A DNA stretch of 64,000 nucleotides. Origin: Crossaster papposus. Taxonomy: Eukaryota; Echinodermata; Asteroidea; Velatida; Solasteridae. The DNA is taken from assembly GCA_037893245.1 (NCBI GenBank), contig JBAIAA010000253.1:496001-560000 (forward strand). Direction: 5' to 3'. The position numbers and the translations under genes were made by a program. Below are positions 27,501-63,880 of the stretch, one piece after another (positions within the stretch are counted from its first letter, which is position 1; every line of letters begins with the position of its first letter). The notes under the pieces were generated by a model, which saw nothing but the letters and a program-made list of their open reading frames with translations, had not been told where the DNA came from and searched no databases.

Positions 27501-30500
27501 CACAGCATTGGTTTTTGGCCATTAAAGTAATCCATATTTTCTGTGGATAAAGATACATGTAGTAAAATTCCCTTGTGAAAGTTTTAGCCTCATTGGTCAT
27601 TTCATGTGCAAGAAAAAAGCGAGAATTTTCTGAACGATTTCTTATTGGCATCAGCGGATTAATTCTAGTCTCATGAGACCAAAACTAATTGTTTTACTAA
27701 TTTCTCAACGACTATAGCATATCAGGCAAAACTATTCTATTGAAAGATTTCTAACATCATCATGTTTATACCGTGTAAGTTATTTGTTTTTGAGATTCCC
27801 AAAAGTGAGCAGGGCCTTTAAACTGCACAAAGATTTTTGTTTTGTTCCTTTGTACTTATTTATATCAACTTTATACGAAAGCACCTGCTGGATATGACAG
27901 CTCATGTTTAAGTGTACATAGTGTGCACAAAAAAAAAATTACGATCGCTGGACGGACGATCGCAAAACAAAAACCAAAAACAACTGCCTGACGCTGGTCG
28001 AAAACGAATGCCATTTTTCTTGCTATTTTCTTGGCATCCATGATTGTAAAACTCCGGACAGGTCAGTTAAAACGATATTTTACTATAAAATACAACCCTC
28101 CAAATCCACCAATTTCTGATAATTCCAGCAATTACCAATGGTGTATCCTACATGTACCTTTAAAGGAAACATGTAATAAGGTTTTTTTTTGCTTAAATCA
28201 ATAAAGTATCATATTGACAACAACATTATGTGTGAGGTTGTGTTTATTTTCTGTGATAAATGGGAGAAAATAATTTTTGAAAATGTTTAGTCATACCACT
28301 CCGCCCCTCAAAGGGAAGCCTCATTAACATAAAACTTCGCGTGGGGTATGACAAAAATCGAGGCAGAGAATTGCCTCGCTGCGGGGGGGCGCTACCCGGG
28401 CCTGGCTTGCATTATGCGCGCATTGCATGCAACAAGTCTTTGTCTACGAGTTTACCATGCCGGTTTTTTATTCTAAATCAGGGTAAAAATACAACTGTTT
28501 TCAGTCATGCCGACTAGATGTGTAGCTGCTGGGTGTAGCAAAACTACCAAGGATGGAGTAAGCCTTCATTTGTTTCCGGCTGATCCTAAATATCGGAGGA
28601 TTTGGACAGCCAAAGTAAATCTTACCAGAGCGAAGTGGTCCCGCCGGGCCTAGTGATTTTTCGGCCCGATCTGCAGCGACCATTTTGAGCGGTCGTGCTT
28701 CGACACTGGTCTGTACAGCAACTTTGGCATGCCCTTAAAAAACATGCTGAAGTCAGATGCTGTCCCAACGATATTCCAATCAGACGAATCTGTACTGTTT
28801 TCGTCAGATTCACTAAAAACCGACGAAGAACTTTTACGATCGTCCATGTTTAGTCCGCGCCGATTACTGTACATGTACATGTACTTTGTACGGTATCCTT
28901 TGCTTTGGACAGCGTGCGTGTGGGTGATCGCGTTTACATGGGGGTGTACGTACGCGTGCACAAGGCGTACGGGATTCGTTCACTCTCGTACACACAACAA
29001 TGTGTGCGTACGTGGCCACGCGAACCCGTCTCGTACCTAGACGTCGCGTACCGACTATCGCTAATTTGTCCGGGTTCTGACTCGATTTACGTCACTCATT
29101 TTGAGTGGCCGCGAAATTTAAAAAGGGGGGGTCAATTTCTGGACGGCAAATTACCACACCAAACGTACACTAGAACCAGTTTTGCTTTTTATTCACATTT
29201 TATACACATAAATCTATTGATTTAAAACAAAAAATGCGTAATGAAGATGTTAGACTACATGTTTCCTTTAAGTGCGAGTGAAGACATGAAAATCCTCACC
29301 CTGATATCACCTACATTTTTCTGTTTTTAATCACAGTATTTCGTCACTTACCAGGGCTCTTCTGTTTTTCTTCCAGCTTTCCATCTTTCGCTTGGAGTCT
29401 TTGGCATCCATGGGTTTGATGCTCGCTACCAGAGCAAAAATGGAATAAAAAAACCAGAAAAAGTGAGTATGAAATTAATGTTTTTTGGGGGACCAAGACA
29501 CTTTTCTACATAAGTGTGCCGAGCACAAACATTTGGTTTAGCTCAAAAGTAACCTGTAAAAACAGGTTACTAGCTAAGGTGGGTTTCGGGTTGTGGTTGT
29601 GAAGAGGGAGGATGGGTGGATGACTTACCGAAGTCCCTGGGATGTGCTCTGGATAAATCTCTGTAGAAGTCGGTCCGATGAGCCTTCTTAAGGCCTGTGC
29701 AGAGACCAAAATCCGACAGTTTAATATGACCCTGTAGGAGAAAAATAAAATGGTGAGAAAAACACAAGGTCATTACATTAGAGATCTTTATACATTAGCG
29801 TTGTATTGGAGTCCCTGCAAGTCCCTGCAAGTCCTTGCAAGTCCATCACAAGTCCATCACAAGTCCTTCAGTCTCAAGTCTAGTCACTAGCTATTCAGAT
29901 GAACTGTTAACAAAAGCATTCCTTTGTCATTGTTCAACCAGTTACTTGCGACTTGCTTTATGAAAGGACTTGTGACTGGACTTGTGACTGGACTTGTGAG
30001 AGGACTTGTGAGAGGACTTGTGAGAGGACTTGTGAGAGGACTTGTGAGAGGACTTGTGAGAGGACTTGTGAGAGGACTTGTGAGAGGACTTGTGAGAGGA
30101 CTTGTGAAAGGACTTGTGAAAGGACTTGTTGAAGGACTTGTGACTGTACTTGTGAGAGGACTTGTGAGAGGACTTGTGAGAGGACTTGTGAGAGGACTTG
30201 TGAGAGGACTTGTGAGAGGACTTGTGAGAGGACTTGTGAGAGGACTTGTGAGAGGACTTGTGAGAGGACTTGTGAAAAGACTTGTGAGAGGACTTGTGAG
30301 AGGACTTGTGAGAGGACTTGTGAGAGGACTTGTGAGAGGACTTGTGAAAGGACTTGTGACTGGACTTGTGACTGGACTTGTGACTGGACTTGTGACTGGA
30401 CTTGTGACTGGACTTGTGACTGGACTTGTGACTGGACTTGTGACTGGACTTGTGACTGGACTTGTGAAAGGACTTGTGAAAGGACTTGTGAAAGGACTTG

Positions 30501-63880: not shown

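Follow-up and report, generated by a model that had tools for sequence, protein, structure and literature searches.

The window, which is the whole stretch of 64,000 nucleotides of Crossaster papposus DNA that was analysed, contained three insertions of one family of repeated elements (copies A, B and C; Table 1). A first-pass annotation, made from the sequence alone, had placed them in one family, and re-reading confirmed the coordinates, the inverted tips, the common core and the 8-bp target duplications, the latter being exact for A and C and having one mismatch for B. Twenty bases of the core were exact in A and B, and were found reversed and with one mismatch in C; array units of 10, 11 and 12 bp were also confirmed. 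The tips had been described as CAG-type, which held for four of the six, but the left tip of A started with TAG and the left tip of B with CGAG. Copy B had been called almost array-free, a description that was not upheld, as its five left and two right units place it near the commonest form of the family.

Table 1. Positions of the three family copies and of their parts in the window.
Feature	Position	Strand	Remarks
Copy A, left 8-bp target duplication TTATACAT	29788..29795	.	exact
Copy A, whole element	29796..30596	core on +	
Copy A, left tip TAGCGTTGTATTGGAGTCC	29796..29814	+	TATT type
Copy A, left arm	29796..29916	+	short, chiefly 10- and 11-bp units
Copy A, core CATTCCTTTGTCATTGTTCA	29917..29936	+	
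Copy A, expanded right arm	29966..30577	+	51 units of 12 bp
Copy A, right tip CAGTGTTGTATTCGAGTCC	30578..30596	-	sequence given on - strand
Copy A, right target duplication TTATACAT	30597..30604	.	
Copy B, left target duplication TCTTAATT	31954..31961	.	
Copy B, 209-bp short form	31962..32170	+	core 32081-32100, 5 left + 2 right units
Copy B, right target duplication TCTTAAAT	32171..32178	.	one mismatch vs TCTTAATT
Copy C, left target duplication TTTAAAAG	63135..63142	.	
Copy C, 553 bp	63143..63695	-	core reversed at 63261-63280
Copy C, 11-bp array	63330..63473	-	ATCACAAGTCC on - strand
Copy C, 10-bp array	63476..63672	-	CTGCAAGTCC and CTGTAAGTCC types
Copy C, right target duplication TTTAAAAG	63696..63703	.	

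Read inward from the right tip, the right arm of copy A consisted of runs of TCTCACAAGTCC, AGTCACAAGTCC and TTTCACAAGTCC. Copy C, read in core orientation, had an expanded TAGT-type left arm (415 bp) and a TATT-type right arm of 118 bp.

Copy B was flanked by two - strand frames of a protein-kinase gene, at 30784-31068 (Pkinase 46.9 bits, over the cut-off) and 32404-32691 (29.1 bits, slightly below the cut-off of 31.7), and copy A lay just past the frame at 30784-31068. By eye, copy B sat a few bases into an intron of this gene, directly past an apparent splice donor (32171-32191, - strand). The arrays were considered as genes and rejected, the long open frames through them being a product of the stop-free 12-bp period. 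Elsewhere in the window, two neighbouring reading frames of the YhhN family were found (7674-8471 and 10951-11730), which we take to be lysoplasmalogenase-like.

Other arrays and elements in the window

Two further elements of the window share a similar architecture. The element at 4404-5448 had inverted arms of 16-bp units GTCAACTCGTACCCGA, the unit resembling the tip, and was flanked by the 9-bp repeat AGTTTATAG (4395-5457 overall), for which these two were the only + strand sites in the window. The element at 50290-53402 (about 3.1 kb) was an inverted array pair with a 16-bp unit, ACCACTTCGCCCATTT, resembling its tips, GTCACTTCGCCCATTTT; a target duplication was sought for it and not found. 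Other elements of the window were also sought in the sampled loci, and shared flanks were examined, both without yield. Of the eight window arrays with units of 10 to 16 bp and a length of at least 100 bp, seven formed part of the arms of inverted-repeat elements, among them copies A and C. An array at 42983-43669, with 57 copies of the 12-bp AGTTTGGCTCCT at 99% identity, had no inverted partner that could be seen.

Copy number and sampling

The genome searched comprised 1.02 Gb in 1,841 contigs. The 20-base core had 2,941 exact matches and its reversed-letter control none, and a 29-base tip-plus-unit pattern had 483 matches, again with none for the control. Because only 15 of 25 tips, by eye and among the matches listed for the two patterns, lay near an exact core, the copy number of the family is probably well above 2,941.

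Eighty-two core copies were examined. The window and the first 48 loci supplied 54 of them, loci chosen by tip, in which cores with up to four mismatches were accepted, supplied nine, and a second exact-core set 19. Loci L005 and L006 (overlapping L004), L049 (repeating L007) and L077 (repeating L076) were left out, and two elements recognised by eye, L057 and a second one in L059, were not counted as their cores were too altered. Loci L076 and L077 carried an identical short insertion and duplication 27 kb apart on contig C7, in segments 99.3-99.8% alike; the pair is a recent segmental duplication or an assembly duplicate, and uninformative on array growth.

Ends, target duplications and the short form

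A recognisable end pair was present in 78 of the 82 core copies, and an 8-bp duplication with at most one mismatch in 58 (42 exact); among the 78, the duplication had at least two mismatches in 20. When left and right flanks were cross-paired as a control, 11 of 6,006 pairs matched with at most one mismatch, and none of 780 pairs of outward-shifted flanks did. The end finder was free to shift two bases toward a match, which accounts for a small part of the excess of duplications. With 2,941 core matches against none, and 58/82 duplications against 11/6,006 and 0/780, the family is not a product of chance.

Elements of the hAT superfamily have short inverted tips starting with CAG. By eye, most of the 78 paired copies had CAG at both tips, the exceptions including the left tips of A and B. 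In the first set of duplications, target position 2 was a pyrimidine in 29/37 and position 7 a purine in 27/37, and both occurred together (nYnnnnRn) in 20/37 (expected 9.2; p = 1.7e-4), compared with 9/37 control octamers. The strict form nTnnnnAn, which is the hAT preference, was found in 7/37. The target consensus of Hermes is NTNNNNAN in the available text of PMC2803484, and nYnnnnRn is a weakened form of this symmetric hAT preference. The tips and the weak target preference fit a non-autonomous hAT-like family; the first-pass annotation had proposed a hAT-like family from the CAG-type tips and 8-bp duplications.

The short form was the commonest form of the family (median 234 bp; 58 copies) and corresponded to a MITE, being short, non-coding, provided with shared tips and, with 2,941 exact cores, abundant. 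Each arm of the commonest form contained two to six direct copies of YAAGTCC at a spacing of 10, 11 or 12 bp, the motif being common to units of all three lengths. In the commonest version, the left tip was followed by units of 11, 10, 10, 10 and 11 bp in this order and by about 50 bp up to the core. About 29 bp separated the core from the units of the right arm, which were inverted and measured 24, 12 and 10 bp toward the right tip. Units ended in YAAGTCC and the tip in GAGTCC, so that the inner end of the tip was a near copy of a unit. Tips were of two types, TAGT and TATT. In TAGT/TAGT copies the right arm measured about 94 bp, and a degenerate 12-mer there merged two units into one of 24 bp, whereas TATT right arms had good 12-bp units in succession; mixed copies had a TAGT left arm and a TATT right arm.

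In the loci chosen by tip, inspection by eye of the three longest frames per locus revealed none resembling a transposase. Locus L057, with tips 1.95 kb apart, was considered as an autonomous parent and rejected, the middle being, by eye, another nested inverted-repeat element. This element (140-1890; ends CCCCTGTCACACCGG) appeared different from the family and was nested in a family copy.

Location of the arrays relative to the elements

Runs of at least four motif copies were scanned for in 313,927 bases, covering the window and the loci up to L059. The arrays did not generally extend beyond the elements, as 69 of the 73 runs lay inside a duplication-bearing copy or beside a tip or core: 42 fell within copies whose duplication had no more than two mismatches, and of the remaining 31, 27 adjoined a tip or core with four edits or fewer. 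Tip-free arrays as a general rule were accordingly rejected. The four exceptions were two runs in L023, both belonging to one solo array, one in L001 and one in L040. The L001 run (2867-3011) seemed to continue past an insertion and was cut by the end of the locus, and the L040 run consisted of four spaced motif copies.

The solo array of L023 (800-1250) was an 11-bp array of GTCGCAAGTCT type, with neither tips nor core nearby. At L046 (4620-5001), 28 copies of AGTCGCGAGTCC adjoined a degenerate tip and were cut by the end of the locus; the unit contained the CGAGTCC of the tip instead of CAAGTCC.

Array growth and arm type

Array lengths varied by whole units, in register with the tip, whose inner-end motif was the basis of the arrays. 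The first-pass annotation had regarded them as amplified terminal repeat. A related motif does occur at the inner end of the tip, but the part that has grown is not simply the terminal repeat; it is a subterminal direct repeat, which is already present two to six times in each short-form arm.

Growth by arm type was compared in 55 copies, which were the 58 with a duplication minus L007, L011 and L020 (an insertion or two cores); untypable tips, four per arm, were left out, and an arm at least 20 bp above basal length was considered grown. The right arm was grown in 9/17 copies with a TATT right tip and in 2/34 with a TAGT right tip (p = 3e-4, exploratory because both the arm classes and the 20-bp threshold were chosen with the data already in view). 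The two exceptions of TAGT type, L003 and L075, had extra units of 24 bp. The left arm was grown in 10/41 TAGT and 0/10 TATT copies, a difference that was not significant (p = 0.18). That opposite arms had expanded in A and C, as noted initially, thus fits their subfamily, as the right arm grows when of TATT type and rarely when of TAGT type. Both arms exceeded the 20-bp threshold in copy C only (415 and 118 bp) among the 55, and both sides of the second L059 element were long by eye. Long tandem-repeat arms within inverted ends, as in foldback elements, were found in the expanded copies only, the short copies being ordinary MITEs.

The longest element reached 2.4 kb. Its right arm (L019) had 187 units, of which 181 were an uninterrupted run of GTTCGCAAGTCC, with an exact duplication, GATAATTG, outside. 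Units without the motif were duplicated in L053 and L075, and in L053 the degenerate unit AGTCATAAAGCC occurred three times in succession. Because this motif-less unit was also repeated, the motif seems less important than equal spacing and likeness between neighbours.

Local and inherited growth

Twenty-two arrays of at least 10 units were found, in 17 of 76 sequences. A unit was termed private when it occurred three times in a row in one sequence only. The dominant unit was private to one of the 76 sequences in 10/22 arrays (nine sequences), basal and found at several loci in 11/22, and derived and common to two in 1/22 (CTGTAAGTCT, in L001 and window copy C). Of the two times for growth that the first-pass annotation had left side by side, after or between transpositions, the former is favoured by the 10 private among 11 derived-unit arrays; the remaining one, common to two loci, is the exception. 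With some 80 copies seen from a family of about 3,000 or more, units counted as private may fail to be so on a full count.

Three of the 10 private arrays were in copies with a counted duplication (window copy A, L019 and L058). The second L059 element had CTAAATAG on both sides by eye, L017 and L028 had tips and no good duplication, and those of L001, L023 and L046 were either interrupted, solo or truncated at the locus end. Identical units were adjacent more often than in shuffles in 5/13 arms (p < 0.05), most strongly in copies A (38 vs 15.2 shuffled) and C (22 vs 6.6), and were not significantly clustered in 8/13. Between array length and the divergence of the inner 100 bp no correlation was seen (n = 28: rho = 0.17, p = 0.39; n = 7: rho = 0.58, p = 0.18), so that the case for growth after insertion comes from the private units and not from a clock. 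With a private dominant unit in 10/22 long arrays, growth looks mostly local, and some arrays look to have been carried by transposition.

Discussion

The family is likely to be a non-autonomous hAT-like MITE in which adjacent motif units serve as seeds and are grown in register after insertion. The YAAGTCC copies are probably transposase binding sites, by analogy with the subterminal repeats of other hAT elements. The arms of the short form would offer several adjacent copies at equal spacing, and could on that account seed minisatellites directly. Once inserted, the element would gain whole units by in-register duplication, with slippage, unequal exchange and repair synthesis as candidate routes, and arrays of up to 187 units would result inside the tips. 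Growth would be promoted where adjacent units are nearly identical and equally spaced, as in the TATT-type right arm and the TAGT-type left arm, and would be rare where degenerate units interrupt the run, as in the TAGT-type right arm, with steps of 24 bp in the two cases seen. Arrays could then travel with the element on a later jump.

Assignment to another superfamily with duplications of about 8 bp (P, Merlin or the foldback type of Mutator) is improbable. Most foldback elements are assigned to Mutator, and Galileo to P, in the available text of PMC4079207, and the hAT target preference was present only in weak form; the 8-bp duplications in 58/82 copies, the CAG-type tips and nYnnnnRn nevertheless argue for hAT. 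It is rather doubtful that the host genome expands any short tandem repeat, with the transposon as one seed among many. The partnerless 12-bp array at 42983-43669 and the solo 11-bp array of L023 are what such a genome would contain, but the location of 7/8 window arrays in inverted-repeat arms points to the elements, one window being a small sample.

Arrays might also grow mainly in the germline of a master copy and spread by transposition, most copies being born with their present array. The derived unit common to L001 and window copy C and the lack of correlation between array length and divergence are consistent with this, and the 11/22 long arrays on basal units at several loci neither support nor exclude sharing; the private dominant units of 10/22 arrays in 76 sequences make it unlikely as the main route, although a sample of this size may miss sister copies. 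Selection as the driving force, with longer-armed copies gaining transposase binding sites and jumping better, has a low probability. Such selection is proposed for Galileo (PMC3573991) and Tetris (PMC4079207) in the available parts of these sources, and units of 10, 11 and 12 bp all contain YAAGTCC. Private single-base changes fell in the seven motif positions less often than expected in 10-bp arrays (1/5; p = 0.03), but as often as expected in 11-bp (7/12) and 12-bp (6/11) arrays; the numbers are small in all three classes and point in no clear direction. The short form being the commonest (median 234 bp) and the duplication of motif-less units in L053 and L075 also argue against it.

Under growth in register after insertion at a hAT-like MITE, each insertion could become an independent minisatellite, because the repeats that putatively bind the transposase lie in tandem at even spacing. 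We would advance tentatively, as a possibility short of an expectation, that the family disperses minisatellite seeds over thousands of potentially independent loci, with arm type deciding the side that grows; repair of excision breaks at the tandem sites may be what drives this growth. The family offers thousands of independent starting points, from one seed and in one genome, for the birth of minisatellites, from which the contributions of unit spacing, unit purity and transposition to array growth could be measured.

In L011, two family copies and a spacer of about 100 bp were bounded as a unit by the exact duplication GCTACAGG, and by eye the spacer matched the right flank of the L009 copy. 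The arrangement may have arisen by tandem duplication of an element and its flank at an L009-like donor, and may then have moved as a composite transposon.

Comparison with known elements

No report of a hAT-like MITE with 10-12-bp arm units growing into minisatellites was found in a literature search that included few subscription papers, so that this absence is weak evidence. Binding to short subterminal repeats is described for the transposases of Herves, Ac, Tol2 and Tag1 (PMC3143072), and the family resembles these hAT elements in having short motif copies beside the tips; growth of such repeats into minisatellites is not described in the available text of this source.

Foldback elements, Tetris and Galileo are close precedents. 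Like the expanded copies, foldback elements have tandem-repeat arms within inverted ends, and the sea-urchin TU elements (1983) reportedly have 8-bp target duplications and 15-bp units. The family differs from both in its basal form, a MITE of about 234 bp with arms that are short by default, of which usually one is expanded, and in its 10-12-bp units. A sea-urchin element is cited as foldback in the available part of PMC4079207.

Tetris of Drosophila virilis resembles the family in being non-autonomous, in having terminal-repeat tandem units that share a stretch with the outer part, and in satellite growth within the element, with copy-number variation between alleles; it differs in its units of about 220 bp, its 8-10-bp duplications, its assignment to Mutator and its three structurally complete copies (PMC4079207, available sections). 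Galileo of Drosophila resembles the family in its arm tandem repeats, which carry transposase sites, and in the independent variation of the two arms of one copy, and differs in belonging to the P superfamily and in having 7-bp flanking duplications and a repeat region of about 210 bp (PMC3688188, PMC3573991, available sections). The authors of these studies propose, in the text available, that terminal tandem repeats add transposase sites and vary independently in each arm (PMC4079207, PMC3688188, PMC3573991). Next to these precedents, the family suggests why some transposon ends become foldback arms: repeats that serve as binding sites would already form a tandem seed.
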